NCBI RefSeq assembly: GCF_015864945.1
Contig: NZ_JADYWF010000002.1
Location: 1-64,000, forward strand
Source: Salinibacterium sp. NG253
Lineage (GTDB): Bacteria > Actinomycetota > Actinomycetes > Actinomycetales > Microbacteriaceae
Direction of reading: 5' to 3'
Length of the DNA stretch: 64,000 nt
Positions 1,784 through 16,509 of the stretch are shown here, in pieces (within the stretch, counting starts at the first letter, position 1; every line of letters starts with the position of its first letter). Position numbers and translations under genes: made by a program. Under the pieces are notes generated by a model, which saw only the letters and a list, made by a program, of their open reading frames with translations, searched no databases and was not told the origin of the DNA.

Positions 1784-2748
1784 GCGCGGCGCCCCGCTAC
1801 CTCGACACTGCGGCTCTGTATGCCGCGATCAGCCCGGTCGAAGCTGTTGGTGCAATTCAGGATGCACTGCTCGCCGGCTTCGATACGGGAACCGACCATG
1901 TGCGGTCAACCGAGAAGCTGACCCAGGGCGACTTTCTCCTGATGCCCTCGGAGGTCGGGCCCTACGCCGGCATCAAGATCATCACGATCAGTCCGGAGAA
2001 TCCGGGGCGAGGGCTTGCCCGCATCCAAGGCCTCTACGTATTGTTCGACAGCGAAACCCTGACGCCGCAACTGTTGATGGAAGGTGCGGCGCTCTCGAAC
2101 ATCCGCACGCCAGCAGTGTCGCTGGCGGCCACCGAGGATGCTCTGCTTCGTGCGACGGAACCACTCAACGTTGTGGTTTTTGGGGCAGGCCCACAGGGAA
2201 TCGATCACCTCGCAACGCTGAAAGCCGTGTTGGGTTCGCGGCGACACATCTCATCCGTCACCTTCGTCGTGCGCACTCCGCGGCCCATTGACGTCGCTGA
2301 AGCCGCGGTCGTGGCGGCGGGGAGCGCCGATGCCGAAGCCGCCGTTGCCGAGGCGGGGCTCATAATTTGCGCGACGACAGCCCGCACTCCGCTCTTTGAC
2401 TCTGCGGCCGTCCGAGATGACGCCGTCGTGATTGCCGTTGGCTCGCACGAACCGGATGCCCGTGAACTCGACTCCGCGCTCATGGCGCGCGCGCAAGTGA
2501 TCGTCGAAGACGTTCCCACGGCGCTGCGGGAAAGTGGCGACGTGATCCTCGCTATCGAGGAGGGGGTGCTTTCGGCCGAACGTCTACTTACAATGTCTGA
2601 CGTGATTTGCGGCCGGACCGAACTGGAGGCCGACCGTCCGGTGGTGTTCAAGAGCTCGGGGATGAGTTGGGAAGACCTTGCCGTTGCGTCCGCGATCAGC
2701 CGTGCCATGAGTCTCACGAACGATGGCGGAAGTGCTGCCAATGACTGA
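1780..2748 (+). CDS. Ornithine cyclodeaminase/mu-crystallin family protein (possible pyrroline-2-carboxylate reductase)
   Basis: A 322-residue protein with an N-terminal substrate-binding half and a Rossmann fold (VVVFGAGPQGIDHLATL near residue 130), followed by LIICATTARTPLF and VIAVGSHEPDARELD, as in the ornithine cyclodeaminase/mu-crystallin family. Members next to hydroxyproline epimerases or dehydratases usually reduce delta1-pyrroline-2-carboxylate to proline with NAD(P)H; that role fits here but true ornithine cyclodeaminase or alanine dehydrogenase activity is not excluded. It overlaps the racemase by four bases and the GntR gene by eight, so the three genes form one translationally coupled operon. 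Confidence 0.82.
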   Translation: MSAAPRYLDTAALYAAISPVEAVGAIQDALLAGFDTGTDHVRSTEKLTQGDFLLMPSEVGPYAGIKIITISPENPGRGLARIQGLYVLFDSETLTPQLLMEGAALSNIRTPAVSLAATEDALLRATEPLNVVVFGAGPQGIDHLATLKAVLGSRRHISSVTFVVRTPRPIDVAEAAVVAAGSADAEAAVAEAGLIICATTARTPLFDSAAVRDDAVVIAVGSHEPDARELDSALMARAQVIVEDVPTALRESGDVILAIEEGVLSAERLLTMSDVICGRTELEADRPVVFKSSGMSWEDLAVASAISRAMSLTNDGGSAAND

Positions 2749-3430
2749 GCCGACGTTGGCGCCGCGACCGCCGCGCGCGAGCATCCGCCAGTATGTGGCT
2801 GACACGCTGCGGGCAGCACTGATCGCGGGGGAGCTAGTGCCAGGTCAGGTCTACTCAGCTCCGGCGCTAGCCAAGCAGCTCGACGTTTCGGCAACTCCGG
2901 TTCGCGAGGCGATGCTCGACCTTGCCCGCGACGGAATGGTCGATGTAGTGCCGAATACCGGCTTTCGCATCACCGAGGTCACCCCGCGGGACCTCGACCA
3001 GATCACCGAAGTGCGGCTGCTGCTCGAAGTGCCGATCATGGGAGAAGTTGCCGCAGCATCCGGCGCTGAACGGGACACGCAGCTGAACGCGCTGCGACCC
3101 ATCGTCGACGAGATGGTGGATGCCGCCCGCCGTAAAGACCTCACGGCGTACCTCAGCGCCGATGCGTCTTTTCACACCCGCTTTCTTGCGCTGCACGGCA
3201 ACAACATCCTCGTGGCGACCGTGCGGGAGCTGCGCGATCGCACCCGCCTACACGGGCTCAAGGGGGTTGCCGATGCGGGCCACCTTGTCGAGAACACGAA
3301 CGAGCACTACGCGATGATCGATGCGGCGCTTGAGCACGATCGCACCGCGATGGAACAGATCATGCGCAACCACCTCGGTCACGTGCGCACGAATTGGGCA
3401 GCCAGCGAATCATCGCGGGACTCACGCTAG
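2741..3430 (+). CDS. GntR-family regulator with FCD ligand domain
   Basis: About 229 residues. The N-terminal winged helix (IRQYVADTLRAALIAGELVPG, then ALAKQLDVSATPVREAMLDLARDGMV) is a classic GntR domain. The rest is a helical FCD ligand-binding domain (LDQITEVRLLLEVPIMGEVAA; the helices carry metal-ligand-like His residues such as SFHTRFLALHGN). It is the last gene of the racemase operon and probably represses it in response to the imino acid. Starts at 2723 and 2741 are both possible; 2741 is preferred because GGCGGAAG precedes it at suitable distance and overlap with the upstream gene is smaller. Confidence 0.88.
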   Translation: MTEPTLAPRPPRASIRQYVADTLRAALIAGELVPGQVYSAPALAKQLDVSATPVREAMLDLARDGMVDVVPNTGFRITEVTPRDLDQITEVRLLLEVPIMGEVAAASGAERDTQLNALRPIVDEMVDAARRKDLTAYLSADASFHTRFLALHGNNILVATVRELRDRTRLHGLKGVADAGHLVENTNEHYAMIDAALEHDRTAMEQIMRNHLGHVRTNWAASESSRDSR

Positions 3431-3612
3431 AGCGCAGTCACACTGCCGTCGACGACGTCGCTCGGAGGTGCGCACGCCGTTGTACCGCTGGAGCGATCTC
3501 AATGGCGGTGAAGCTCGAAGGGCGCACTGCTCCGGTACTGCAGACTCCATCCAGAGGTGTAGCGTGCACTAGCGTGGCTGGCCGTTGGCCGGCACCAACC
3601 AAAGGATCACAC

Positions 3613-4044
3613 ATGGACGTTGAGAACGAAATTCTGCCCACCAGCAAGGAGCGTCTCGAGGAAATCGGGCAACCCGGTCCGGAAGGTCCTATCTTCATGG
3701 TCAACATGCTGAAGTTTAGAGATCACGCCGAGTACCCCGACGGCAGAGAAACCGAGCTCACGGGCCGCGAGGCCTACCACCTCTATGCCAAGGTGGCGGA
3801 AGAGTTGATCCGGGGCATCGGCGGAGAAGTGACCTTCGACGGCGACGTGACGTTCCTGAACACCGGCGAAGTCGAAGAGCTGTGGGACGAGATCATGATC
3901 GCGCGCTATGGCCAACGGTCCGATCTTGTGGACATGGTCCGCACGGACGAGTGGAAAGCCGCTGCGGTTCATCGCGTGGCAGGGCTGAAAGGCGAACTCA
4001 ATATTGAAACCGTCGCGTCAGCTACGAGCGTTCAATCGGTGTAA
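3613..4044 (+). CDS. DUF1330-like dimeric alpha/beta-barrel protein
   Basis: A 143-residue cytoplasmic protein. IFMVNMLKFRDHAEYPDGRE, AYHLYAKVAEELIRGIGGEV and a later WDEIMIARYGQRSDLVDMVRTDEWK follow the order seen in DUF1330-type ferredoxin-fold dimers. No catalytic role can be named. The start at 3613 is chosen because AAAGGA lies just upstream; an in-frame extension to 3394 overlaps the GntR gene and has poor codon usage. It is monocistronic and convergent with the sensor kinase gene. Confidence 0.7.
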   Translation: MDVENEILPTSKERLEEIGQPGPEGPIFMVNMLKFRDHAEYPDGRETELTGREAYHLYAKVAEELIRGIGGEVTFDGDVTFLNTGEVEELWDEIMIARYGQRSDLVDMVRTDEWKAAAVHRVAGLKGELNIETVASATSVQSV

Positions 4045-4110: not shown

Positions 4111-5580
4111 TCAGTCCTGAATTGTCGGCTCCTCGGCGAGGGGGAGGTGCAGCTCGAAGGTTGCACCGCCTCCCGAGGTTGGCCGCAATTGCACAGAGCC
4201 GTGATGCTGGAGTGCGATCTCCAGAGTGACGGCAAGGCCGAGACCGGCGCCGTCGTGACTGCTCCGTACGCGAGACGGATCTGAGCGGTAGAAGGGCTGG
4301 AAGATTTTGTCTCGCTCGTCTTCGGCAATGCCTGGTCCGTGATCCACGATGCTGATCACAGCCTCGTTGTCAATGAGGTTCGCAACGACAGCGACGACGG
4401 TATCAGTCGGGGTATGGCGGCACGCGTTCGCGACAAGGTTAAGTAGCGCTTGGTGGAGTTGCGCCGGATTGCCGGTGAGCGGAACGTTCACTACTGCGCC
4501 GAGATCGGTCGTGATCGTGCGCGACGGGAAAGCGACCCGTAGATCGTCGACCACGTTCTCTGCCACCGTGACCAGGTCAACATCCTCCTCCACGGCCTCG
4601 AGCGGTTTTCCCTCCCGCACCAGTTGCAACATCGAGTTGACGAGCACGTTGAGGCGGATGCTTTCGTCGCCTACGCGGGACATTGCGCGATCGAGAGCGC
4701 CCGGAGTGGAAAGCATGTCTTGCGCGTAGAGGTCGCTGTAACCCTTGAGGGCGGTTAGTGGGGTGCGGATCTCGTGAGCGACATCCGCAAGCAGGCGACG
4801 CATGTCATTTCGGGCCCGCGTAGCATCGGCGGCGGACTGCTCTCGCTCGGCGAGGGCATCCCGCAGTCGGTTCACCATCCGATCGATATCGGTCGAGAGC
4901 TCCGCGATCTCGCGCGAGCCACCCGCTGGTGCAATCGGGGTGTCAAGCCCGCCATCCGCGATCTGCGTAACGCTCCGAGCAACTCCGGCGAGTGGCCGTG
5001 CGATCTGCCGGGCGAGGAACCAGGCCATCGCAGCTTCGAGCACTGCGATCGTGACCCCGCCAACCACAAGAGTGCCGCGCAGGCTTGCCAACGCTGCGTT
5101 GTAAGAATCGAGCGATAACGCGGTCACGCGAACCACACCATCCGGGGTCGGCGAGATTAACACCCGATAGTTGTCGACCGTGGCTGTAGTGCTCGTGGTC
5201 GTTGCCCCGAAGTACGCGAGATCCGCCGCAGCGAATGGGCTTGTGATCCCCAGATTGTCGAGAACAGTACCGTCGGGTGCGACGGTGAACTGGACCGGGA
5301 GGCTCTGGTCATCAATGTTCGGAGTGGGTGGCACTTGCTCCGACTCCGTGGTCGGGCCGCTATCGGGAAGAGAATCGGGGCGTGGGGCAGGGGCATCGGG
5401 GTCCGCGTCGGCGGGCGGTGGAACAGTGGTCACTTCCGCACGGGCGAGTTCGGCGTCCACTTCTGCGAGCCGACGAGCGCTTTCGCTGACGTCCACAGCA
5501 AGGGCGAAGGCGAGGAAGCCTACGACGATCGTCGCGAGAACGGGCAGCAGCAGCATCCACCGCAGAGAGAGGCGTCTCAC
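4111..5580 (-). CDS. Sensor histidine kinase (two-component system 1)
   Basis: A 489-residue membrane sensor. One span lies at residues ~8-30, then an extracytoplasmic domain of ~140 residues that starts with a Pro/Asp/Glu-rich stretch (residues 50-90), a second span at ~170-190 and a HAMP linker (~190-245). The H-box DVAHEIRTPLTALKGY carries the phospho-acceptor His269; the ATPase domain has an N-box (NLVANACRHTP), DHGPGI and GAGLGL. It is translated from GTG overlapping the response-regulator stop by four bases, so both are one operon. It is divergent from the YHYH lipoprotein genes, which are its likely targets. Confidence 0.95.
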   Translation of the reverse strand: MRRLSLRWMLLLPVLATIVVGFLAFALAVDVSESARRLAEVDAELARAEVTTVPPPADADPDAPAPRPDSLPDSGPTTESEQVPPTPNIDDQSLPVQFTVAPDGTVLDNLGITSPFAAADLAYFGATTTSTTATVDNYRVLISPTPDGVVRVTALSLDSYNAALASLRGTLVVGGVTIAVLEAAMAWFLARQIARPLAGVARSVTQIADGGLDTPIAPAGGSREIAELSTDIDRMVNRLRDALAEREQSAADATRARNDMRRLLADVAHEIRTPLTALKGYSDLYAQDMLSTPGALDRAMSRVGDESIRLNVLVNSMLQLVREGKPLEAVEEDVDLVTVAENVVDDLRVAFPSRTITTDLGAVVNVPLTGNPAQLHQALLNLVANACRHTPTDTVVAVVANLIDNEAVISIVDHGPGIAEDERDKIFQPFYRSDPSRVRSSHDGAGLGLAVTLEIALQHHGSVQLRPTSGGGATFELHLPLAEEPTIQD

Positions 5581-6281
5581 GGGGCATCCTCGCGCAGAAC
5601 ATAACCTATGCCGCGGCGGGTATGAATGAGGGTCGGATGCCCGTCATCGAGCTTGCGGCGCAGGTAGCCGATGTACAACTCGACCACATTCTCGCTGCCA
5701 GAGAAGTCGTCTTGCCACACCTCAACGAGGATCTGGGCCTTAGAGAGCACAACGCCGCGATTGGCCATGAGGTAGTGCAAGAGCCGAAACTCTGTGGCCG
5801 AAAGATCAACGAGGGCTCCGCCGCGACGAGCCTGGTGGCCGGCTAGATCAAGAGTGAGCGAGCCAACCTGCAGCATGGTTGTAGCCGTGCTCGGGCTGGT
5901 GCGACGCAGGATCGCCGCAACGCGGAACACCAGCTCGTCGACGGTGAACGGTTTGGTCAGGTAGTCGTCGCCACCGGTGGCGAATCCGCGGATGCGATCC
6001 TCGGGCTCCGCCAGCGCAGTGAGAAAGAGAATGGGGGTCGTCGACCCGGTGGCGCGCAGTCGGCGGCACACTTCGAGACCGTCAATGCCGGGGAGCATCA
6101 CATCGAGAACGATGAGATCAGTGGGCTGGGCGAGCGCCGAGCTGAGCGCCTGATGGCCATCGGCGACGCTCATGACCGCATGGCCCTGAAAGCTCAAAGC
6201 GGTGGTCACGACGTCACTAATCGCTTCGCTGTCTTCGGCTACGAGGATGCGATGGGCGGGTGACTGCGGTGCGTTCGACAC
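5577..6281 (-). CDS. OmpR/PhoB-family response regulator (two-component system 1)
   Basis: A 234-residue response regulator. The receiver domain shows the acidic pair Glu16/Asp17, phospho-acceptor Asp60 (LIVLDVMLPGIDG), Thr88 and Lys109 (YLTKPF). The C-terminal winged helix (~residues 135-230) has LSATEFRLLHYLMANRGVVLSKAQIL and YIGYLRRKL. It is the first gene of the pair with the kinase at 4111. Its promoter region (6282-6365) is shared with the divergent YHYH gene and holds four phased TGTGG/CCACA boxes, a likely binding array for this protein. Confidence 0.95.
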   Translation of the reverse strand: MSNAPQSPAHRILVAEDSEAISDVVTTALSFQGHAVMSVADGHQALSSALAQPTDLIVLDVMLPGIDGLEVCRRLRATGSTTPILFLTALAEPEDRIRGFATGGDDYLTKPFTVDELVFRVAAILRRTSPSTATTMLQVGSLTLDLAGHQARRGGALVDLSATEFRLLHYLMANRGVVLSKAQILVEVWQDDFSGSENVVELYIGYLRRKLDDGHPTLIHTRRGIGYVLREDAP

Positions 6282-6303
6282 GGCCTGAATCTAGCAAGAA
6301 AAA

Positions 6304-6343
6304 CTGTGGCACAGTTGTGGCGCATTCCACAGCGTGACCACAG
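6304..6343. promoter_or_regulatory. Phased TGTGG array, candidate response-regulator binding site
   Basis: TGTGG occurs at 6305 and 6316 and its complement CCACA at 6327 and 6338. All four start exactly 11 bases apart, giving two direct repeats facing two inverted ones. OmpR-type regulators bind direct repeats spaced 10-11 bp. The array lies between the divergent starts at 6281 and 6366 and could control both. Confidence 0.65.
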
Positions 6344-6365
6344 CAACCGCGCCGAGGGTGTCACT

Positions 6366-7421
6366 ATGAACACAACTGTACGGCGCGACATCCGCCTCAA
6401 ACGTCCCCCGCTGTTCGCGGGCGTGCTCGTCTTGTCAGCCCTCGCGCTGGCCGCGTGCGCTTCGGCCGACACCACCACCTCGACCTCAACCGACGGTTCC
6501 ACCACTGCCGTGTCGGCTGGACTCGACCTTGACCTGTTCGTTGATGGAGCGATCGTTGGGGACCCAGCGACCGTTGACTGCACGCTTAACGGCGGCACGG
6601 AAACGACCTGTTACGAGATCACGATATCCGGATACCCCACCGACCACGAGATCGGCCCGTTCTGCCCTGACACGACCTCCACTTCGGCTGACGACGCCGG
6701 TATTTGGTTCGATGGAGAAGAGGTCTACGACCTCGATGGTGAGTTCATCGCGAACCTCGCGGAGACCTACGGCGATGACGGCTGGCACATGTATGACGAA
6801 GACGGCAACGTCTACGTCACCGACACCGTCGAAGCTTTTGAAGCTGCCGCGCGACCAGATGTCGATCCCGATTACCAGAACTACTGCATCGAGGGCAGCT
6901 ATGACTTCCTCGACAACGGTGAGCCGATCGAGTCGACCGTTCTGATCCCCACCACTCCTGTTGCCGCTGACGCGTCAGCAGCATCGCAGGGCAACCAGGG
7001 CATCACTCTTGACGGTGTCGTCATCGCCGAGTCCGCTCCCGTTGACGCCATCCTCGGCGCCTACACGATCGCCTCGTTCGACGACTGCGGCGCCCACTTC
7101 AACCCGTTCGAGGGCTACCACCTGCACGGTGCGACAGGGTGCTCCGAAGTTGGCGATGCCGCCGAAGGCGAGACCCCGATCTTCGGTTACGCGATGGACG
7201 GCTTCGCCGTGCACAGCCCCTACAGCGACGAAGAGCTCGCCAACGTGGAGCTCGACGAGTGCAACGGACACACCACCGACGAACTCGGTTACCACTACCA
7301 CGCGAACTCCGCTGAAAAGAACCAGGTTATTCAGTGCCTCGTCGGCGAGACGGTAGCCAGTGACGATGAAGGCGCGGGCGGCCCGCCCGCTGGTGGCGCT
7401 CCCGCTGACCCTAACGAATAG
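6366..7421 (+). CDS. YHYH-domain lipoprotein 1
   Basis: A 351-residue secreted lipoprotein: basic N-terminus, hydrophobic segment and lipobox LAAC (ALALAACASAD), then a Thr/Ser linker. The C-terminal half carries the YHYH domain signatures GYHLHGATGC, GYAMDGFAVHSPY, LDECNGHTTDELGYHYHA and a closing Cys. The N-terminal part has a second conserved block (TVDCTLNGGTETTCYEITISGYP) shared with the next gene. The His/Cys-rich motif suggests metal or cofactor binding, but the family has no established activity. A Gly/Pro-rich tail ends the protein. The start at 6366 gives the lipoprotein signal; a frame from 6306 runs through the operator array. Confidence 0.85.
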   Translation: MNTTVRRDIRLKRPPLFAGVLVLSALALAACASADTTTSTSTDGSTTAVSAGLDLDLFVDGAIVGDPATVDCTLNGGTETTCYEITISGYPTDHEIGPFCPDTTSTSADDAGIWFDGEEVYDLDGEFIANLAETYGDDGWHMYDEDGNVYVTDTVEAFEAAARPDVDPDYQNYCIEGSYDFLDNGEPIESTVLIPTTPVAADASAASQGNQGITLDGVVIAESAPVDAILGAYTIASFDDCGAHFNPFEGYHLHGATGCSEVGDAAEGETPIFGYAMDGFAVHSPYSDEELANVELDECNGHTTDELGYHYHANSAEKNQVIQCLVGETVASDDEGAGGPPAGGAPADPNE

Positions 7422-7476
7422 CCCCAAAGGCGATTGCAACTGAACCGTTTCTGACGAAACCTTCTGGAGAATCAGT

Positions 7477-8556
7477 ATGAAAACATCCGCCCAATTTGTG
7501 TTGGTGCCCTTGGCCTGTCTCGCGCTGTTAGTGAGCGCGTGCACAGCAGCTGACGACTCGACGGACAGCACTAGCGACGCGGTATCGTCGGCGACGGATT
7601 CCGAAGTCGCAGCGCTCTTCGCCGACGGAGCGTTGACGTCAGACGCGATCACCGTCGACTGCACCCTCTCCAACGGCAGCGAGTCAACGTGCTACCAATT
7701 CGAGGTCGCGAGTCTCTCATCAGCGGTCGATACTGAGGGTCCGTTCTGCCCCGAAACCACCACGGACGAGGGTGGAATTTGGGTCTGGGATGGGGACGAA
7801 CCTGGTCTCTACGCGCTCGATGAAGACTTCTGGGCCCTCATGGAGTCGCAAGGCTTCGAGTTCGCTGACGCGGATGGCGACATCACGATCGTGGACCCTG
7901 CTGGCGGAACTCCGTCGTCATCGACGACAGAGAATTCCTGCCTGCAGGCCACGCCGGATGATAGCTATCACCTTCAGGTGCTGATCCCCACGACGCCCGA
8001 GCTTCTCGATGAAGTAACGGACCTCTCGGTGATCTCGCAGATCGGTCTCGCCTTTGATGGTGTGACAATCTTCGGCGACGCTCCCTCGGTGCTCGACACC
8101 GGCGGGCTTCCGGCGCTTGATGCCTGCGGTGGCCACATTGACCCCTCGGGGTACTACCACTGGCACTTCGGCGCCGAGTCGATTCAGTCGATCTTGGATG
8201 ACGCCGGAGCGAACGTGACCTGTGCGATCGAGCAAGATAACGAAGCTCCCGTCGCGCTCGCCTACGACGGCTACGTGATCTACGGCTCAGAAGAGGATGG
8301 CGCAGTACCTACCGACCTCGATGAGTGCGGCGGCCACGTTTCTGACACCGAAGAGTTCGGTGAGGTGTACCACTACCACCTCAGCACCGACGCATCCAAC
8401 CTGCCACTGTGCCGAGTAGGGGCAACGGCAGAGGTAACACTCTCTAGCCCTGACGGCGACAACGTCGCGTTGCCGAACGGCACCGCTGGTGGCGGAGGCG
8501 GCGCACCCGGTGACGGTGGCCCGCCCGACGGCGAAGCGCCTGACCAGGGAAACTAG
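7477..8556 (+). CDS. YHYH-domain lipoprotein 2
   Basis: A 359-residue paralogue of the preceding gene. The lipobox is LVSAC, and the shared N-terminal block reads TVDCTLSNGSESTCYQFEVASL. The YHYH part has DPSGYYHWHFGAES, LAYDGYVIYGSEEDG, LDECGGHVSDTEEFGE, VYHYHLSTDA and a final Cys; a Gly/Pro-rich tail follows. GGAGAA seven bases upstream sets the start. It is the second gene of an operon with YHYH 1 and the HupE-like gene. The two copies differ at the first His motif (GYHLHG versus GYYHWH), so they may not be redundant. Confidence 0.85.
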   Translation: MKTSAQFVLVPLACLALLVSACTAADDSTDSTSDAVSSATDSEVAALFADGALTSDAITVDCTLSNGSESTCYQFEVASLSSAVDTEGPFCPETTTDEGGIWVWDGDEPGLYALDEDFWALMESQGFEFADADGDITIVDPAGGTPSSSTTENSCLQATPDDSYHLQVLIPTTPELLDEVTDLSVISQIGLAFDGVTIFGDAPSVLDTGGLPALDACGGHIDPSGYYHWHFGAESIQSILDDAGANVTCAIEQDNEAPVALAYDGYVIYGSEEDGAVPTDLDECGGHVSDTEEFGEVYHYHLSTDASNLPLCRVGATAEVTLSSPDGDNVALPNGTAGGGGGAPGDGGPPDGEAPDQGN

Positions 8557-8559
8557 GTA

Positions 8560-9711
8560 GTGCACCACAGCACCACAGCACGATCCGCACGGCACGGTGG
8601 GTTCTCGCCTCTGGCGAGGCTCACCGTGCTGGCCGGGCTTATCGTTGCAACGCTGGCCCTCGTTATGCCGACTGCGGCATACGCTCACGACGGCACGAGT
8701 GAAGCCCTCATTCTTACCGTCGATCAGGGAAGAGTTGTCGGGACCGGACTCGTCGAATTCGCCGAACTGGGACTCGAAGACACCAGCGGTGACGGCCTCA
8801 TCGACGCCACCGAACTAAGCGAACAAGAAGCCGCGGCTGCGGCGACGCTCGTCGGTACAGTTCGCGAAAACGTGACGCTCGCCGTCAACGGCGAGGCGCT
8901 TGAGATTATTGGGGCCGGGCTCTCGTTTCAGGGATCCAGCACCGACACCGAACTCGCGGCATCCGAATATGTTGGCGTCGCTTTCGCTTCAGCAGAATTT
9001 GAAGGCGAGCTGGATGAACTCGCCGTGACGTGGACATTCCCCTCACCGAGCAACGCGATTCTGCTTTCCGACGCGGAGGGCGCCGTTCTCGGCCACCTCA
9101 GCGATGAGGGCGCAGTGTCGTTCACGCTGGGCGCCTGGGCGACCGCAAGTTCATTTCTCTTGCAGGGCTTCGAGCACATTCAGCTCGGCCCTGACCACCT
9201 CCTCTTTCTTGTTGTGCTCGCGCTCGGCGTAGTCGGCGTCAAGAAGGGTCGCGCCGTGTGGTGGCCCGCCATCAAACTCGTGACCGCGTTCACCGTCGGG
9301 CACGCGATCAGTCTTTGCCTTGCCTACTTCAGCATTGTGTCGATTCCTGCGGGCATCGTTGAACCGCTCATCGCGCTCTCCATCGTTGCCGCCGCGGTTC
9401 TCGCACTCCGACGAAAAGCCGGCGAATACCGCTGGTGGATCGCAGGCGTCGTCGGTCTGGTGCACGGCCTCGGCTTTGCATCCAGCCTCTCCGAACTCGG
9501 GCTCGTCACCTCTGACCACGTCATTGCGCTCATCTGCTTCAACCTCGGAATTGACATTGCACAGACCATCGTCGTGCTGCTCGTGCTCGCCGTTGCGGCA
9601 GTGCTGACTCGACTGGTGCCCAAACGCTTCGAAATCATTCGGGTCAGCGCGAGCATTGCGATCGGGCTCGTCGGACTCTATTGGACCGTCACGCGGGTGT
9701 GGCCGTTCTAG
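8560..9711 (+). CDS. HupE/UreJ-family membrane protein
   Basis: A 383-residue protein with a signal peptide (…MPTAAYAHDG), an extracytoplasmic domain of ~170 residues, and a C-terminal block of about six or seven spans. The membrane block starts with GFEHIQLGPDHLLFLVVLALG and has TVGHAISLCLAYF and GLVHGLGFASSLSELGL, the His-rich helices typical of HupE/UreJ proteins. Family members are linked to metal (nickel, cobalt, copper) handling, but substrates are mostly unproven. GTG start with AGGGAA upstream, three bases after the YHYH 2 stop, so co-transcribed. Its stop codon shares a CTAG with the convergent ApbE stop. Confidence 0.85.
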   Translation: MHHSTTARSARHGGFSPLARLTVLAGLIVATLALVMPTAAYAHDGTSEALILTVDQGRVVGTGLVEFAELGLEDTSGDGLIDATELSEQEAAAAATLVGTVRENVTLAVNGEALEIIGAGLSFQGSSTDTELAASEYVGVAFASAEFEGELDELAVTWTFPSPSNAILLSDAEGAVLGHLSDEGAVSFTLGAWATASSFLLQGFEHIQLGPDHLLFLVVLALGVVGVKKGRAVWWPAIKLVTAFTVGHAISLCLAYFSIVSIPAGIVEPLIALSIVAAAVLALRRKAGEYRWWIAGVVGLVHGLGFASSLSELGLVTSDHVIALICFNLGIDIAQTIVVLLVLAVAAVLTRLVPKRFEIIRVSASIAIGLVGLYWTVTRVWPF

Positions 9712-10487
9712 GAGGCTGAAGCTAAGGCACTCACGAGCCCGGGTGTCGCCCGCAAGTCTCCCGCACGATCTACCGTGATGACGTCGACATCCCAACGATC
9801 AGTAACATCGTCGAGAGCAGCCTGGCCACCCGCCACGATCGTTGTCGCCAGAACATCGGCGGTCACAATGTCATTCGCGACGACACTGACCTGCACGAAC
9901 TCGGCAGGCTCGAAACTGCCGCCGCGCCAAATGTGATCGCCGCGCTGAGCGCTGCCCGAGGTCGCGATCGCGCGGCGCGGATGCCGCAACTCCAGCGAAC
10001 ACAAGAGCTGCGTTGGGGCGGCAGGGTCGGCGATCCCGGCACGCAGAAGCGCGGGCGCGAGTTGCCCGGCCGGAGAGGTGACCGCGGTGGCTGCGCCGGT
10101 GGGGGAGACGAGGATGTCGCCACCCACGTTGATGCTCCACTGCGGGCATCCGACCGACGTGAGGTATTCGCCAGCCTGCTCAATCGCTTCGGCTTTGACA
10201 ATCCCGTTGAGGTCAATCGTGCCGTCGGGACGGTTCGGAGTGAAGTTGCCGCCGGTGGCAGCGCGCCACTCGAGCGCGCGGGCATAGCTGGCCAACAGGA
10301 CGCTACTGGCAGAGGGAAGGGTGAGCCGGCTATCGGCAACCTTGCTCAGTTCAGAGTCGGGGCGGTAGAGGCTGAAGCGGTCATCGACCGCGCGAAAGAT
10401 GCGCTCTAGCTCGGCACGCTCCGAGGCCCAGGCGCTCGGAAGTTCGATTGAAGCAACCGTGCCCATCGTTTCAAAGACGTGCCGCAT
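9708..10487 (-). CDS. apbE: ApbE-family FAD:protein FMN transferase
   Basis: About 259 residues. Family marks include FETMGTVASIELP at the N-terminus, FSLYRPDSELSKV, TPNRPDGTIDLNGIVKAEAIEQA, SINVGGDILVSP and the late metal-binding block NDIVTADVLATTIVAGG. ApbE attaches FMN covalently to a Thr/Ser in extracytoplasmic redox proteins. No obvious signal peptide is present. Its substrates are almost certainly the two FMN-binding proteins in the same operon. It is the last gene of the minus-strand operon; the start overlaps the preceding stop (TGATG at 10487; a GTG at 10490 is the alternative). Confidence 0.92.
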   Translation of the reverse strand: MRHVFETMGTVASIELPSAWASERAELERIFRAVDDRFSLYRPDSELSKVADSRLTLPSASSVLLASYARALEWRAATGGNFTPNRPDGTIDLNGIVKAEAIEQAGEYLTSVGCPQWSINVGGDILVSPTGAATAVTSPAGQLAPALLRAGIADPAAPTQLLCSLELRHPRRAIATSGSAQRGDHIWRGGSFEPAEFVQVSVVANDIVTADVLATTIVAGGQAALDDVTDRWDVDVITVDRAGDLRATPGLVSALASAS

Positions 10488-11023
10488 CACGCACCAGCCT
10501 GGTCGAGTGCGGACTGCACCGACGCGAGATAGGCCTGAGTTGTGTAGGTGGCACCACTCACATTCGAGACCTGAGCCGATTGCGATTCGAGCACCGCGGT
10601 GCGCAGAATCGGGGCTGCCCGGTTGCTTATTTGCACCGAACGACCATCGTCATCCGTCAGTTGAAGGGCCGTTATGTCGGTGATGGAACCGGAGGAAATC
10701 GTCACGGCAACCTGCACATTGCCGAAACGAGTGCTGACGCTTGAACCGGTGTATGTTCCGTCGGTCGGGCCAGTCGCGGCCGTCTCTGGAGCGGCTGCTT
10801 CTGGAGCGGTCGAGTCGGTAGTCGATCCCGAAGAAGAACCACTCGACGAATCTGTCGGTGCTGTCTCGGTCGTGGTGGCGTTCGGATCAGTGCCTGCTGC
10901 TGAGTCGACCGGCAACGTCAACGACGTGCCGTCACTCGTGGTGACGCTCACGCCTGCTTGGTAGCCGACGATGAGCACGCTCGTGGATGCGAGGATGCTT
11001 CCCAGGATCGCTCGTGTTCTCAC
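10487..11023 (-). CDS. FMN-binding domain protein A (flavinylation substrate)
   Basis: A 178-residue exported or membrane-anchored protein: an N-terminal hydrophobic segment (ILGSILASTSVLIVGYQAG), an acidic Ser/Thr/Glu linker (~35-80) and a C-terminal FMN-binding domain. The domain opens with DGTYTGSSVSTRFGNVQVAV and carries the flavinylation motif VSGATYTT, where the Thr of SGAT is the expected phosphoester site. It probably carries electrons from the ferric-reductase-like protein encoded directly upstream, whose stop overlaps this GTG start by four bases; ApbE follows with another overlap. Confidence 0.88.
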   Translation of the reverse strand: MRTRAILGSILASTSVLIVGYQAGVSVTTSDGTSLTLPVDSAAGTDPNATTTETAPTDSSSGSSSGSTTDSTAPEAAAPETAATGPTDGTYTGSSVSTRFGNVQVAVTISSGSITDITALQLTDDDGRSVQISNRAAPILRTAVLESQSAQVSNVSGATYTTQAYLASVQSALDQAGA

Positions 11024-12435
11024 CAGTCGAACCTTTCTGCGTGAATTTGATGGGAGCGGATGCCCGAAGCGCGCACGTCAACCTCGATGAGGTCGAGCCA
11101 CGCGGTGGGTCCGCACAGGTACACGTCGGAGTCTGCGAGGTCGGGGAAGGCGCTCTGAAGAGTGACTCCGCGCTCATAGTCCGCTGCGGTCATCCAGCTG
11201 TCGACACCCCGCGGGCGGTGGCCGACCATCGAATAACAGGTGGCACCTTTGGCGGCGGCGATCGCCCGAATTTCGTCCCAGTGATAGGTCTCTTCGACGG
11301 TGCTGGCCCGCAACAGGATGGTGGCTTCACCCGGAGCAAATGATGATTGTTCGAGCAGGGCACGCACCGGAGTCACTCCAATTCCGGCGGCGATGATGGT
11401 GAGCTTGGGTGACGTGCGGGCGGCATCCGAGAACAACCCGTAAGGCCCCTCGATGCTGACGCGTGTGCCTACCGGTATCACCGTGAGTTGGGCACTGCCG
11501 GTGCCCAGATTGCGGACGGTGATGCGCGCCGAGCTGGCGGTGGGCATCGCCGACAATGAGATCGGGTGCGAGTGCCACCAGGTGCGTGGTGTCCAAAACC
11601 GCCAAATGAAGAACTGGCCTCCGGATGCTCCGAGTGCCCGTAGATCGTTGCCCGCCAGTTGAATCGTGGTGACGCCCGGGGCAATCTCGGTGACTGCGGC
11701 CACGCGCATCCGATGGCGGAGGCTCGAGACGAGCGGCTCGGCGAACCGGAACGTCACGATGCTGCCGAGTGCGAGCACGTAGAGTGCGATCCAATACACG
11801 CGCTGAAGGCTGCCGTCAGCGAGTACCCCTCCGACACTCAGCTGGTGAGGCAGCGCGAAGGCCACCGACACGTAGCTGAGCAGGTGGATGAGGTGCCAGC
11901 CTTCGTAACTGAACCGTCGACGTACCGCGACCAGTGATGACACGACGACGGCGATCATGAGCCCGAGGCCGATGAAGGCGAGCGGCATGTCGGGCAGGGA
12001 AAGCATGGGTCCGATTTCGGCAATCGGGTTGATGCCCGTCGACATTCCGTAACCGATCAGGAGGAGCGCACCGTGCCCGAGAAGCAGGTAGAGCGCGGGC
12101 TTGCCGAGCGAACGGTGGAGGGCGATGGCGCGATCGTGGCCGATCGTCGCATCGATGAGGGGGATGCGGGCGGCGAGCACCAGCATCACCAGAATGAAGT
12201 CGGTGCCGATCAGCCCCGCGACGATTCCGACGCTGGTGAGGATCTCGGTGATCGAAGAGAACTGGCTGAGCCCTCCGGATGCCAAGAAGAGCGCAGCGGC
12301 GGCGGCTCCGGAAGCCCACAGCGCGATCACGAGCGCATCGGAACGACGGCCGCGACGCGCGAACGCACGCCGGTAGTCGCCGCCGGCGATGGGGGGCCGG
12401 GCGGCGACGCGTCGGGTCGCGGCGTGCGTGGTCAT
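11020..12435 (-). CDS. Ferric reductase-like transmembrane oxidoreductase A
   Basis: About 471 residues. The N-terminal half has six or so spans with the ferric-reductase heme pattern: IGHDRAIALHRSLG, LYLLLGHGALL and EGWHLIHLLSY. The C-terminal half is a ferredoxin-NADP reductase module: FAD motif HSHPISLSA, pyrophosphate site AAGIGVTPVRAL and C-terminal YLCGPTAWLD. It likely moves electrons from NAD(P)H through FAD and heme across the membrane to FMN-binding protein A. The start at 12435 is preferred over 12483 because CAGGG precedes it and it begins at a normal polar N-terminus. Paralogue of the protein at 12990. Confidence 0.88.
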   Translation of the reverse strand: MTTHAATRRVAARPPIAGGDYRRAFARRGRRSDALVIALWASGAAAAALFLASGGLSQFSSITEILTSVGIVAGLIGTDFILVMLVLAARIPLIDATIGHDRAIALHRSLGKPALYLLLGHGALLLIGYGMSTGINPIAEIGPMLSLPDMPLAFIGLGLMIAVVVSSLVAVRRRFSYEGWHLIHLLSYVSVAFALPHQLSVGGVLADGSLQRVYWIALYVLALGSIVTFRFAEPLVSSLRHRMRVAAVTEIAPGVTTIQLAGNDLRALGASGGQFFIWRFWTPRTWWHSHPISLSAMPTASSARITVRNLGTGSAQLTVIPVGTRVSIEGPYGLFSDAARTSPKLTIIAAGIGVTPVRALLEQSSFAPGEATILLRASTVEETYHWDEIRAIAAAKGATCYSMVGHRPRGVDSWMTAADYERGVTLQSAFPDLADSDVYLCGPTAWLDLIEVDVRASGIRSHQIHAERFDW

Positions 12436-12534
12436 GTGTATACCCTGCGGCTTCAAGCTATGGGATTGCCCGGAACCACCCACCTATTAGCTGAGCGAGC
12501 TCCGGGTTGGGAAGAGCGAGGTTCGCGAGCCGCC

Positions 12535-12993
12535 TCAGGAAGCAGCTTGGTCGAGTGCCGATTGCACCGACTCAAGATAGGCCTGACTCGTGTAGGTCGC
12601 ACCGCTCACGTGGGAGACCTGAGCAGACTGCGACTCGATAACTTCAGCACGCAGAATCGGTGCCGTTTTGTTGCTGGTCTGGTCAGAGCGACTGTATTTG
12701 TCGGCCAGAGTGAGAGCCGCAACCTCGGTGACGATGCCAGCTGAGACTGTCACGGCGACTTGAACGTCGCCGAAACGAGTGTTGATGCGTGATCCGGTAT
12801 ATGTCCCGTCAACGAGATCTAACACGGCCTCCTCTGGCGTGATCACCACGCTCGGAGTGATAGCTGGTGTTGGATCGATTGGAGCCGTCAACGACGTGCC
12901 GTCGCTCGTGACAACTCTCATGCCTGCTTGGTGGCTGACTATCAGCACGCTTCCTGCCGCAAGGATGCCCGCCAGCATCGTTCGTGTTCTCAC
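12535..12993 (-). CDS. FMN-binding domain protein B
   Basis: A 152-residue paralogue of protein A with a shorter linker. It begins with the same RTRxxLxxILAxxSVLIV signal segment, then DGTYTGSRINTRFGDVQVAV and the flavinylation motif VSGATYTS, and ends with QAYLESVQSALDQA. The Thr of SGAT is the probable FMN site. It overlaps reductase B by four bases. With a single ApbE in the operon, the same transferase presumably flavinylates both A and B. Confidence 0.87.
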   Translation of the reverse strand: MRTRTMLAGILAAGSVLIVSHQAGMRVVTSDGTSLTAPIDPTPAITPSVVITPEEAVLDLVDGTYTGSRINTRFGDVQVAVTVSAGIVTEVAALTLADKYSRSDQTSNKTAPILRAEVIESQSAQVSHVSGATYTSQAYLESVQSALDQAAS

Positions 12994-14417
12994 CAGTCGA
13001 ACCTTTCCGAGTGAATCTGATGAGAGCGCAGTCCGGCGGCTCGCACTTCTGCTTCAACGAGATCGAGCCACGGGGTCGGCCCACAGAGGTACACATCGGA
13101 GTCGGCCAGGTCAGGGAAGATGGTGGCGAGGGTGACACCACGATCGACATCGGCGGCAGAGATCCAGCTCGAGGTGGTGCGAGACCGATGACCGATCATT
13201 GTATAAAAAGCGGCACCTTTTGTGGCGGCGATCGCCCGAACCTCATCCCAGTGGTAGGCCTCGTCTGGAGTGCTGGCGCGCAACAATACAGTCGCATCGC
13301 CGGGATCAAAACTAGCTTGCTCGAGAAGGGCACGCACCGGTGTCACACCGATCCCGGCGGCAATGATCGCCACTTTCGGGCTGGTGCGTGCGACATTCGA
13401 GAACAGCCCGTAGGGGCCTTCGAAGCTCACGCGGGTGCCGACCGGCAAAGTTCCTAGTTGAGTGCTGCCTTCGCCGAGGGCTCGAACGGTAATGCGCGCT
13501 GACCTGTTGGTCGGCATCGCGGAGAGTGAAAAAGGGTGCGAGTGCCACCACGTGCGTCTCGTCCAGAAACGCCAGATGAAGAACTGGCCACCGGATGCGT
13601 CAAGTTCACGCAGCGCATGACCGCTGAACTGAATTGCGGTCACCCCGGGAGCGATCACGTCGACCGCTGAAATGCGAAGGCGGTGACGCACGCTGGACAC
13701 GATCGGCTCGACAAACCGAAACATCACGATGCCCCCGATCGCCGCAACGTAGAGGGCGATCCAGTAGATGCGCTGAAACGTTCCTTCAGCGAGGACCCCG
13801 CCGACGCTGAGCTGGTGCGGAAGCGCAAACACCACCGACGCATAACTGAGCAAGTGAATGAGATGCCAGCCCTCATAGCTGAAACGGCGCCGCACGGCAA
13901 CGAGCGACGACACCACGACAGCAATCATGAGCCCGAGGGAGATGAAAGCGAGCGGCATATCGGGGAGGGCAAGCATCGGACCGATTTCGGCAATCGGGTT
14001 AACTCCTGTGCACAGCCCATAACCGACAATCAACAGGACGGCATGGCCGAGCAGCAGGTAGAGCGCAGGTTTGCCGAGTGAACGGTGCATGGCGATAGCG
14101 CGGTCGTGGCCGATGGTCGCATCGATGAAGGGGATGCGGGCCGCGAGCACCAACATCACGAGAATGAAGTCAGTGCCAATCAGACCCGCAACGATGCCCA
14201 TGCTCGTGATGGTTTCACCGACCGTGAATTGACTGGCGGTTTGCGAGGCTAGGTAGAGCGCGGCAGCGGTAGGCCCGGAGGCCCAGAATGCGATGACAAG
14301 GATGTCGGAACGACGGTTGCGGCGGGCATACTTGCGTCGATATTTGGCGGCGGAATTGCGCGGTTGTGAGGCAGCGCGACGGGAAGTGGCCTGGGTATTG
14401 GCCTGGGTAGCGGGCAT
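12990..14417 (-). CDS. Ferric reductase-like transmembrane oxidoreductase B
   Basis: About 475 residues, closely related to oxidoreductase A throughout: the heme-binding spans IGHDRAIAMHRSLG, LYLLLGHAVLL and EGWHLIHLLSY, FAD motif HSHPFSLSA, AAGIGVTPVRAL and YLCGPTPWLD. It should perform the same transmembrane electron transfer, with FMN-binding protein B as its acceptor. The start is uncertain: ATG at 14417 has GGGAGG directly against it, and a TTG at 14438 lacks a ribosome binding site. The A and B modules have the same order and overlaps, so the pair arose by duplication. Confidence 0.87.
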   Translation of the reverse strand: MPATQANTQATSRRAASQPRNSAAKYRRKYARRNRRSDILVIAFWASGPTAAALYLASQTASQFTVGETITSMGIVAGLIGTDFILVMLVLAARIPFIDATIGHDRAIAMHRSLGKPALYLLLGHAVLLIVGYGLCTGVNPIAEIGPMLALPDMPLAFISLGLMIAVVVSSLVAVRRRFSYEGWHLIHLLSYASVVFALPHQLSVGGVLAEGTFQRIYWIALYVAAIGGIVMFRFVEPIVSSVRHRLRISAVDVIAPGVTAIQFSGHALRELDASGGQFFIWRFWTRRTWWHSHPFSLSAMPTNRSARITVRALGEGSTQLGTLPVGTRVSFEGPYGLFSNVARTSPKVAIIAAGIGVTPVRALLEQASFDPGDATVLLRASTPDEAYHWDEVRAIAATKGAAFYTMIGHRSRTTSSWISAADVDRGVTLATIFPDLADSDVYLCGPTPWLDLVEAEVRAAGLRSHQIHSERFDW

Positions 14418-14482
14418 CCTCCCACTCTGCTGCCGCAATCTAAGGGAACGCCAAGAAATGAGGCGCTCTTACATGAGCGAAC

Positions 14483-15832
14483 TCACATGTTTGGCAGAGC
14501 AACCGTCACGCGTAAACCGGTTTCGGTATTGTCCAACCTGGCCGTGCCCCGGGCAGCCACGGCGATCGCATGCACCAGAGCGAGTCCGAGACCGCTCCCT
14601 CCCGTGGTGGCGGTGCGCGAATTGTCGGGACGGGAGAAACGATTGAAAGCGATCGGGATGAATTCCTCGGACATGCCGGGGCCGGTGTCGTGCACTTCCA
14701 ACCGCAGTTGCGTCGCATCCTGATGCAGCGTGGCAACAACTTCACCCTTCGCGGCGATCGCGGCCACCGCATTCGACAACAGATTGTCGACGAGTCGACC
14801 GAAAGTGTGAACCCCCACGGCATATCGTGCGCTCTCATCAGCCACGTCGACCGTGAACTCTATCCGCGCCGACTTTGCCATGCCCAGAAGCCGCGCTCGG
14901 TCGATGCTGCCCATGAACTCATCGAGGAGGCCGCCGGCTGCGGTCTGCATCGTGCCAGGGTCTGTATCTAGTCGATTGAGCTCCAACAGATTCGAAGCCA
15001 ACGAGGTCAGGCGATTGACGGATGCCTTGGCCAGCGACACGTGAGCGGCAAGAGCAGCCGCATCACCCGAGTCGGAGTGCGCGAGCTCGAGTTGCGTTCT
15101 GAGCGCCGCCAGAGGGGTGCGCAACTCATGGGCCGCATCCGACACCATTTGTTTTTCGCGTTCGGTAGAGGCGCGGCTGCTGGCAAGGAAGGCGTTGAGG
15201 GTTTCAGCGAGTGCCGAGAGCTCGTCTCGGGCAGGACCAACGGGAAGGGTCGCTTCAGAATCTGCGCTGAACTCTTCGGCTTTGCGACGCATTGCGTTCA
15301 CCGGCTGGAGGGCGACAGTCGCAAGAATCCACGAGGCGAGAGCGAAGCCGACAAGCAAAACGATGGCGGCGATCACGAGAATTTCGCTGAGGCGGCGCAG
15401 GGCGAGTTCGCTGGCGGCCGTGGAACGTGCTGACCACACCATCCACTCGCCGGAGATGGTCGGAACAACAGCGCCGGAGATAACAAACGCGCTCTTTTCA
15501 TCGTCGCGAAAGTCGAAGGTTCCGGTGGACTGCTCGTGGCTATCGATGGCCTTCCTTACGTCGTACGGCAGCGAGTTGACGTGCACCGTTCCGGAAGGAT
15601 CGCGAACAAACACCAGTACGCCGGTGCCGGGATTCTCAATCGCGCCGTCGGGGTTTTCAGTGATGTCGGCGATAAGCGGGACTAGGTCGCTTGCGGCAAG
15701 AGTGTAATCGGCCTCGATCAGCATCTGCTCGACTGACGCGCGCACCACTAGAAGGGCGATCGTCAAGAGGATCGCAACGGCGGCAACACTGCCCAACGTG
15801 ATGCGGGCACGGATAGAGAGGGCCGAAAACAT
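14483..15832 (-). CDS. Sensor histidine kinase (two-component system 2)
   Basis: About 449 residues. The first span is ~residues 13-32, then an extracytoplasmic domain of ~115 residues, a second span (~150-172) and HAMP linker. The H-box SDAAHELRTPLAALRTQLEL holds the phospho-acceptor His (~residue 236); the ATPase end shows LLSNAVAAI, VHDTGPGM and GGSGLGLALV. The regulator stop and this start overlap as TGATG. The genes downstream are the reductase and flavin proteins, all on one strand with short gaps, so the sensor probably controls or reports on that redox pathway. Confidence 0.94.
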   Translation of the reverse strand: MFSALSIRARITLGSVAAVAILLTIALLVVRASVEQMLIEADYTLAASDLVPLIADITENPDGAIENPGTGVLVFVRDPSGTVHVNSLPYDVRKAIDSHEQSTGTFDFRDDEKSAFVISGAVVPTISGEWMVWSARSTAASELALRRLSEILVIAAIVLLVGFALASWILATVALQPVNAMRRKAEEFSADSEATLPVGPARDELSALAETLNAFLASSRASTEREKQMVSDAAHELRTPLAALRTQLELAHSDSGDAAALAAHVSLAKASVNRLTSLASNLLELNRLDTDPGTMQTAAGGLLDEFMGSIDRARLLGMAKSARIEFTVDVADESARYAVGVHTFGRLVDNLLSNAVAAIAAKGEVVATLHQDATQLRLEVHDTGPGMSEEFIPIAFNRFSRPDNSRTATTGGSGLGLALVHAIAVAARGTARLDNTETGLRVTVALPNM

Positions 15833-16509
15833 CACGCCTTCGCCGATAGCGCGTAGCCGACACCGCGCACTGTGCGGATGGAAAGTGCCGACTGAGTTGG
15901 CTGCAGCTTACGGCGCAGATAGCTCACGTACTGATCCACCACGTTGGCATCAATGTGGGCGGTCGTGCCCCAGACCTCCTCCAAGATCACCGAACGGGTG
16001 AGCGGTTCACCTTCGTGTGAGGCGAGCATCCAGAGCAGCGCAAACTCTTTAGAACTCATGGGCAGGGGAGTGCCGCCAACGGTAGCGCGCACGGTAGCGG
16101 CATCGAGCGTGAGGTTGCCGATGATGAGGGTCGCTCTGCTGATCGCCAGATCTCGACGAACGAGAGCGCGGATGCGGGCCGAGAATTCGACGAAAGCGAA
16201 CGGTTTCGTGAGGTAGTCATCCGCCCCCGAATCGAGGCCGACCACGCGGTCTTCGACAGCATCCCTGGCGGTCAGTAGGAGCACGGGAAGCAGGTTGCCT
16301 TGCTCGCGCAGGTGACGGCAGATTTCGAATCCGGTCATTTCGGGCAACATGACGTCGATCGCGGCGGCCGAGTAGGTGTCGTGGGCGATGGCGATCAGGG
16401 CATCGACACCGTTGGTGACGAGCGTGACTTCGTGGCCGTCATCCTCGAGTCCATGTTGGACAAGAGCCCCCATGGTCGCGTCGTCTTCCACGACAAGGAT
16501 CTTGGTCAT
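15832..16509 (-). CDS. OmpR-family response regulator (two-component system 2)
   Basis: A 225-residue response regulator: acidic residues Glu8/Asp9/Asp10, phospho-acceptor Asp52 (AIDVMLPEMTG), Thr80 and Lys102 (YLTKPF), followed by a winged helix with MSSKEFALLWMLASHEGEPLTRS, NVVDQYVSYLRRKL and TVRGVGYAL. It heads the minus-strand operon that runs through the kinase, both reductase/FMN modules and apbE down to 9708. A 7-bp inverted repeat (CGCGAGC, GG spacer, at 16523-16538) lies just upstream and could be an operator. Confidence 0.95.
   Translation of the reverse strand: MTKILVVEDDATMGALVQHGLEDDGHEVTLVTNGVDALIAIAHDTYSAAAIDVMLPEMTGFEICRHLREQGNLLPVLLLTARDAVEDRVVGLDSGADDYLTKPFAFVEFSARIRALVRRDLAISRATLIIGNLTLDAATVRATVGGTPLPMSSKEFALLWMLASHEGEPLTRSVILEEVWGTTAHIDANVVDQYVSYLRRKLQPTQSALSIRTVRGVGYALSAKA

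Follow-up and report, generated by a model that had tools for sequence, protein, structure and literature searches.

A YHYH-HupE cassette and a flavinylation operon at one chromosomal site of Salinibacterium: probably two independent units

We analysed a stretch of 64,000 nt (contig NZ_JADYWF010000002.1, positions 1 to 64,000; "the window") that is part of the 2.97-Mb genome of Salinibacterium sp. NG253 (genome code G000). At 4111-16509, it contains a pair of genes for YHYH lipoproteins, a gene for a HupE/UreJ-2 permease, a seven-gene flavin operon, and two gene pairs for a response regulator and a sensor kinase. These are probably two gene sets and not one pathway. Our best explanation, which we favour with some confidence, is that two independent units occupy one variable site, i.e. 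an extracytoplasmic metal-capture cassette controlled by a two-component system (TCS) and an electron-export operon. An initial annotation of the sequence had combined all of these genes into one extracytoplasmic redox and metal pathway. Every gene it had named for the region was recovered, based on Pfam and model scores, but its one-pathway reading was rejected on the results on dissociation, linkage and regulation described below.

The two units separate within the genus

The left half of the region (4111-9711) comprises the genes for the kinase HK1, the regulator RR1, the lipoproteins YHYHa and YHYHb, and HupE. The right half (9708-16509) comprises those for RR2, HK2, two ferric-reductase-like proteins (FRE), two FMN-binding proteins, and ApbE. 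The genes for HupE and ApbE converge and overlap by 4 bases (9708-9711).

Our sample of the family contained 199 genomes, including four members of the genus, i.e. G000 (window), G082, G197, and G145. Genes outside the window were predicted with a simple codon-usage caller, and their start positions are uncertain. Both units are present in G000, with two reductase/FMN modules, and in G082, with one module. G197 is Salinibacterium amurskyense, the closest named relative found in the same genus. It has HK1, RR1, YHYHa, YHYHb, and HupE (78-94% identity), and HupE is directly followed by an aminopeptidase-P-like gene (97%) and an SPFH-like gene (90%), both of which trail the flavin unit in the window. 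The 20-kb stretch around its YHYH cassette contains no relative of ApbE, FMN, or FRE, and the sole FMN_bind match of this genome sits elsewhere, in an NQR/RNF-like operon. G145 has RR2, HK2, FRE, FMN, and ApbE (60-80%) between an HPF-like (83%) and an SPFH-like (95%) flank gene, and its whole genome has no Pfam match to YHYH or HupE_UreJ_2. The names of the flank genes (HPF-like, SPFH-like, aminopeptidase-P-like) are our reading of their sequences. Within one genus and in the same chromosomal neighbourhood, each half is found without the other. By the standard that the initial annotation set for itself, and to the extent that sequences can tell, this counts against its one-pathway reading.

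Linkage outside the genus

A co-occurrence of YHYH/HupE and flavin genes, which the initial annotation had put forward for a survey, was not observed, neither as linkage in the other loci examined nor as an association in the family sample. FMN_bind was found in 101 of the 199 genomes, HupE_UreJ_2 in 26, and YHYH in 13. FMN_bind was present in 8 of the 13 genomes with YHYH versus 93 of the 186 others (p = 0.57), and in 15 of the 26 genomes with HupE versus 86 of the 173 others (p = 0.53), i.e. neither pair was associated.

For the linkage analysis, 52 YHYH loci were compiled, excluding the window cassette and its copies in genus mates and including three other loci of the same genome (L010-L012). 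Near-duplicates (L075, L077, L178), genus orthologues (L071, L072), a short locus (L164), and a locus in which no YHYH was found (L187) were left out; L134, which is among the 52, yielded no YHYH hit with our profile and contributed no neighbours. None of the 782 genes in these loci matched FRE, FMN-binding, or ApbE proteins at an E value of 1e-5. The reverse comparison used 20 FMN_bind loci chosen from the family, for the most part those with the best scores, and included that of G145. All 20 contain FRE and FMN genes and 18 contain ApbE (phmmer), and none of the 20 has YHYH or HupE. A VIT1-like gene lies near the flavin genes in nine of them (about 6 kb away in L113), and its identity was confirmed by Pfam for the one scanned locus, L122.

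YHYH and HupE shared three genomes of the family sample versus 1.7 expected, which is not significant, and all three belong to the genus of the window. In a 396-genome sample of the phylum, HupE_UreJ_2 was found in only two of the 16 other YHYH genomes. The triad YHYHa-YHYHb-HupE recurs in G489, a member of another family of the phylum (phmmer E values 1e-152, 6e-145, and 6e-107). Among 248 genomes of the order of G489, relatives of YHYHb were found in 22 and relatives of HupE also in 22, and only the HupE of G489 is close to that of the window (52% identity, E = 4.5e-105). YHYH and HupE co-occurred in 10 genomes of this order versus 2.0 expected (p = 1e-6); because eight of the 10 belong to two families, this may reflect shared ancestry. 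A HupE scan of genome contigs yielded only two loci, and two scans of viral contigs yielded no confirmed YHYH relative.

A regulator pair and a DNA box at YHYH genes

Judged by its sequence and that of its relatives, the left half (HK1, RR1, YHYHa, YHYHb, HupE) is a real unit. RR1 (5577-6281, minus strand) is an OmpR-type response regulator by Pfam, divergent from the YHYH genes, and HK1 (4111-5580, minus strand) is a sensor histidine kinase with HAMP, HisKA, and HATPase_c domains (Pfam). A pair of this type lies beside YHYHa in four distant actinobacteria (G802, G799, G611, G675), and their regulators are 57-63% identical to RR1 and resemble it in the recognition region. The identity between RR1 and RR2 is 41%. 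HK1-like kinases adjoin YHYH genes in G082, G197, and the same four genomes, three of which are covered by the HK1 alignment. A less similar regulator/kinase pair (42%) was found beside YHYHb in G633, and plasmid loci of Antarctobacter and Acaryochloris have two-component genes of other types beside YHYH (39% and 21% identity).

Of the 179 genes located no more than two places from a YHYH gene, eight encode regulators, versus none of 145 distant genes (p = 0.0095), the latter sampled from 224 genes lying five to eight places from a YHYH gene. A Pfam tally of the near set likewise gave eight response regulators; for the far set, the tally comprised the best 25 of 211 families. In the YHYH loci, a regulator is encoded at most two genes away from six of 18 extended YHYH proteins, i.e. 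those with an N-terminal domain, and not from the other 12.

A candidate RR1 box is found in the intergenic stretch between RR1 and YHYHa and consists of two direct repeats of 11 bp in facing orientation (6304-6343; CTGTGG-N5-tTGTGG and CCACAG-N5-CCACAG). In G082 and G197, the right half of the box is conserved, and the left half is partial in G197 and not conserved in G082. The exact pattern YCACAG-N5-YCACAG occurs at a single site in the whole window genome, at 6327, upstream of the first YHYH gene, and G197 also has one exact site, at its YHYH operon. Of 18 exact sites in eight genomes, nine, including two that overlap, are located upstream of YHYH genes at a distance of no more than 100 bp. 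These nine are at eight operons, namely two of G802 and those of G000, G082, G197, G611, G675, and G799. The window and its genus mates, together with G802 and G611, supplied the pattern, and the sites used there are no independent test; G799 and the second operons of G802 and G675 provide independent ones.

A relaxed form, CACAG-N6-CACAG, is found upstream of a run of lipoprotein, YHYHa, YHYHb, and HupE genes in G489 (L091, 15141) and upstream of YHYHa in G784 (L175, 8940). In 1.48 Mb of loci of at least 8 kb, 11 of 14 relaxed sites are at YHYH operons, one of the 11 being a duplicate record. G289 and G649 have two-mismatch sites only, and no good site was found in G633, G791, G621, Acaryochloris, or Antarctobacter. 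The flavin promoter has no exact site, and allowing as many as two mismatches to the stricter form yielded none there either. The box is also present at a divergent gene pair in G611, where it is shared with YHYHa, and in G802 (L208:1501, L212:1501), hinting at a wider regulon. Going by their sequences, we take the proteins of this pair to be DUF4956-like and VTC-like.

The permease has a secreted domain with a predicted N-terminal histidine

HupE (8560-9711, plus strand; PF13795, HupE_UreJ_2, 126 bits) has an extracytoplasmic N-terminal domain. By sequence pattern, processing after AYA gives a predicted mature protein that starts with His43 (HDGTSE). A His after an AxA-type site was found, by pattern only, in all 33 HupE proteins examined, i.e. 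the 26 of the family sample, that of G489, and six plasmid-encoded ones, two of which are nearly the same. The outer domain also carries an EF-hand-like loop, DTSGDGLIDATE, and a profile of seven N-domains matched calmodulin EF-hand loops (E about 1e-3).

HupE/UreJ-2 proteins with secreted domains were described in 2025 as "anglerases", whose mature N-terminal His binds copper; the authors argue for metal capture and uptake (PMC12537917). Reported Kd values are 74 nM for Cu2+ and 220 nM for Ni2+ for RbAng-1a (crystal structure 9GCE), and 62 nM for Cu2+ for MmAng-2a of Microbacterium (PMC12537917). The window protein is like the Ang-1 and Ang-2 anglerases described there in that a secreted domain with a mature N-terminal His (predicted here) precedes the PF13795 domain. 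It is unlike them in that it is encoded beside YHYH genes and a TCS, and not beside the metallophosphatase/DUF916 or DUF4198 genes described in that source.

An assignment of the window HupE as a plain Ang-2, the apparent type of most HupE proteins of the family sample, was not supported (hhalign probability 0.2 against Ang-2-type domains). The value was 0.7 against a Leisingera domain, which itself matches the Ang-1 structure 9GCE at 3.5e-11, and 2.5 (E = 0.018) against domains of Roseovarius and Pseudoalteromonas, with which the window domain has His1 and the EF-hand-like loop in common. These profiles are small, four sequences for the window type and one to three for several others, so that the domains may share a fold.

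The YHYH lipoproteins and the genes beside them

YHYHa (6363-7421, plus strand, likely start ATG 6363) has an N-terminal Cys-containing domain and a YHYH domain (PF14240, 45.4 bits), and YHYHb (7477-8556, plus strand) is a second YHYH lipoprotein (43.1 bits; cutoff 25 for both). The matches cover positions 4-115 and 4-110 of the 193 profile positions. The lipobox-like N-termini LAAC and VSAC were read from the sequences; signal peptides and lipoboxes were judged by sequence pattern throughout. YHYHa has a close relative in G489 and in the two-component-linked loci, and YHYHb has relatives with 67% identity in G489, 71% in G633, and 47% and 43% in two alphaproteobacterial plasmids. Three His, two Asp, and two Tyr of two motif blocks are among the invariant residues of 25 aligned YHYH proteins. 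Extended YHYH proteins of Alphaproteobacteria have an AxA-His start (5/5, from four plasmids), and those of Actinobacteria a lipobox-like start (12/13). The whole window genome has five YHYH genes (six matches, two within one gene), one HupE_UreJ_2 gene, and two ApbE genes.

The YHYH domain occurs in bacteria, phages, and diatoms, and neither a tested function of YHYH proteins nor a study of what the domain does in bacteria was found in the open-licence papers searched. Like the phage-tail proteins described in PMC7824862, those of the window have a Pfam match over the cutoff and conserved Asp/His residues. Unlike those, they are lipoproteins with an extra N-terminal Cys-containing domain, an a/b tandem arrangement, and a dedicated TCS. 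Neither YHYHb nor HupE has a relative in the Protein Data Bank by sequence at E values up to 1.

Five of the 179 near genes encode DUF305 proteins, versus one of the 145 far genes. DUF305 is the domain of the copper-binding protein CopM (PMC4335983), and genes of this CopM type lie within two genes of YHYH in several actinobacteria (L010:6012-7546, L094, L095, L096, L183). In the window genome itself, a third-type YHYH gene lies beside a gene for a NicO nickel/cobalt transporter (Pfam; L012:6567-8641, C1 near 540000). In G289 (L093:8150-15258), a regulator-kinase pair is divergent from a series of genes that encode a YHYH protein, a multicopper oxidase, a PEBP protein, another YHYH protein, and a lipoprotein. 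On a plasmid of Paracoccus seriniphilus (L133:6010-7861), a tandem pair of extended YHYH proteins, the first annotated as hypothetical, has AxA-His starts in both members, and genes for a cytochrome b and a heavy-metal P-type ATPase come next.

A further protein family is recurrently linked to YHYH (6/179 near genes versus 0/145 far genes), and two scanned members have no Pfam match. Its members (L091:14286-15059, L092:8611-9330, L093:8150-8887, L172:10940-11665, L184:10061-10711, L136:4839-5486) are mostly lipoproteins with the motif EVWADNW...TTERSFNAET, and the one from Loktanella (L136) bears the annotation PEBP family protein.

The flavin operon is of the MsrQ-like kind

The flavin half is a flavinylation cluster of a known kind, termed "MsrQ-like" (Meheust et al. 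2021, PMC8238504). Its seven minus-strand genes are transcribed in the order RR2 (15832-16509), HK2 (14483-15835), FREb (12990-14438), FMN-binding protein b (12535-12993), FREa (11020-12483), FMN-binding protein a (10487-11023), and ApbE flavin transferase (9708-10490; PF02424, 82 bits). FREa and FREb are ferric-reductase-like transmembrane proteins that match PF01794 (53 and 51 bits, cutoff 28), so that six-helix heme proteins are predicted by Pfam, and they have a C-terminal NAD-binding domain, PF00175 (22.2 and 26.4 bits, cutoff 22). Both FMN-binding proteins (PF04205, 35 bits each) carry the motif SGAT, read in their sequences, which fits the site [S/T]GA[S/T].

The doubling of the module noted in the initial annotation is real, with two FRE and two FMN_bind genes, and the second module does not resemble a recent copy. 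FREa shares 88% identity with the only FRE of G082 and 81% with the FRE of G145. A recent duplication was considered and is unsupported: FREb is similarly distant (74-76%) from FREa and from the FRE proteins of G082 and G145, and is apparently an old duplicate.

MsrQ-like clusters number 1797 in the source description, which gives them as broadly conserved in Actinobacteria, with an NAD-binding domain in 1437 and VIT1 in 153 (PMC8238504). The window operon is like them in uniting a PF01794-PF00175 protein, an FMN_bind protein, and ApbE in one operon of an actinobacterium. It is unlike them, as they are described there, in its two tandem reductase/FMN modules and the regulator/kinase pair that leads the operon. 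It also differs from the VIT1-bearing clusters of that source in lacking VIT1, genes for which are found elsewhere in the genome. RR2 is 78% identical to its counterpart in G145 and 80% in G082, and HK2-like kinases are found beside flavin genes in five of the 20 loci (L111, L114, L122, L124, L129). Both score below the cutoffs of the heavy-metal two-component models TIGR01386/TIGR01387 (RR2 202 versus 279 bits, HK2 140 versus 293 bits).

Under the control of its own regulator and kinase, this operon would supply heme proteins that are fed by NAD(P)H and pass electrons to FMN covalently placed by ApbE. The output would be an extracytoplasmic reductase activity, with ferric iron as a possible acceptor.

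The second ApbE gene of the genome (C1:1154723) belongs to a different, second flavinylation operon (L013:6258-9056). Besides ApbE, this operon encodes an FMN-binding lipoprotein and a membrane protein whose C-terminus is of the FAD/NAD type, and it resembles, in our reading, NQR/RNF-like systems.

Proposed function of the YHYH cassette and alternatives

We propose that HK1 and RR1 respond to some envelope signal and that RR1 binds the facing repeats and thereby switches on the divergent YHYHa-YHYHb-HupE operon. The YHYH lipoproteins would act as metal binders on the cell surface that deliver the metal to HupE, or buffer it for HupE, the outer domain of which would begin with a metal-chelating His, transport presumably being directed inward. 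The metal would most likely be copper, with nickel as the next candidate. Metal capture is proposed because outer domains with His1 bind Cu2+, because AxA-His is found here and in the extended YHYH proteins of Alphaproteobacteria, and because DUF305, multicopper oxidase, and NicO genes lie beside YHYH genes. Metal handling by YHYH and HupE, as suspected in the initial annotation, is a reasonable idea, and the evidence for a metal role of YHYH, i.e. neighbours and N-terminal patterns, is circumstantial. More tentative is the wider view that the extended YHYH proteins form a new family of metal carriers outside the cytoplasm, secreted with an N-terminal His in Alphaproteobacteria and with a lipid anchor in Actinobacteria. 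Copper or nickel would pass from them to a third, His-tipped type of HupE/UreJ-2 permease, under a dedicated TCS with a box that is shared by distant actinobacteria; we would not yet bet on it.

Several observations weigh against metal capture by a conserved cassette. The full triad was found only in the genus and in G489, where it has no adjacent regulator, and G633 has YHYHb (71%) and a regulator pair, but its HupE genes are on other contigs and no box was found. The 18 exact box sites compare with 16 for a reversed control pattern, which is not above chance; the signal is the placement of the sites at YHYH genes. In sequence, the outer domain of HupE is like neither Ang-1 nor Ang-2. AlphaFold2 models were unusable, with a mean pLDDT of 30 for YHYHb (four sequences) and 38 for HupE (two sequences). 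By eye, the sensor regions of ten aligned HK1-type kinases have no conserved His/Cys/Met pattern, and therefore HK1 need not sense metal. The arrangement is like that of copMRS in Synechocystis, where the gene of an extracytoplasmic protein lies beside its own TCS (PMC4335983). It is unlike it in that CopM, as described there, is a DUF305 and not a YHYH protein, and in that RR1 (192 versus 279 bits) and HK1 (159 versus 293 bits) are below the heavy-metal cutoffs mentioned above. For phage YHYH proteins, carbohydrate binding or host recognition has been suggested (PMC7029224).

The missing metal pattern of the HK1 sensor would also fit an envelope-stress system, in which the YHYH proteins are surface metal-dependent hydrolases acting on the cell wall or another polymer and HupE supplies their metal. 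The box at the presumed DUF4956/VTC-like pair of G611 and G802 points in the same direction, as does the Zn site with a Zn-dependent hydrolase role predicted for YHYH in phage tails (PMC7824862). A pure hydrolase role would not explain the N-terminal His of the alphaproteobacterial homologues, and DUF305, multicopper oxidase, and NicO genes beside YHYH speak against it; we regard it as rather unlikely. About the same low probability is assigned to a cassette with the opposite direction, i.e. one that guards against excess metal by sequestration or efflux and is not used for acquisition. CopM acts in copper resistance (PMC4335983), and P-type ATPase and RND genes lie near some YHYH genes, but the window cassette contains no efflux gene and the anglerase authors favour capture and uptake (PMC12537917). 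Our confidences in the favoured and the alternative explanations overlap, because capture and sequestration share most of their evidence.

Least probable, and in our view improbable, is the single pathway, in which the flavin chain would reduce a surface metal, e.g. Cu(II) or Fe(III), and YHYH and HupE would bind and import the reduced form. The units are adjacent in two of the four sampled genus members, cytochrome genes lie beside some alphaproteobacterial YHYH genes, and a reductase acting before a permease has been proposed for VIT1-linked MsrQ-like clusters (PMC8238504). Against this stand the double dissociation, the absence of linkage in the 52 YHYH and 20 flavin loci, and the separate regulators, with no box at the flavin promoter. 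Joint action of the two units is possible in G000 and G082, which hold both. The example is a caution that adjacent operons should be compared among close relatives before they are read as one pathway. The conserved regulator, the specific DNA box, and the His-tipped permease partner turn an uncharacterised YHYH lipoprotein into a testable regulon in the cultured S. amurskyense DSM 16400.

The chromosomal site

The site that holds the two units appears variable and, from sequence comparison, may be a hotspot for insertions. From the HPF-like flank gene to HK1 (767-4044 in the window), the intervening gene content varies among genus members. At this left end, inspection by eye revealed sulfatase-like and transporter-like genes in G082 and other metabolic genes in the window.

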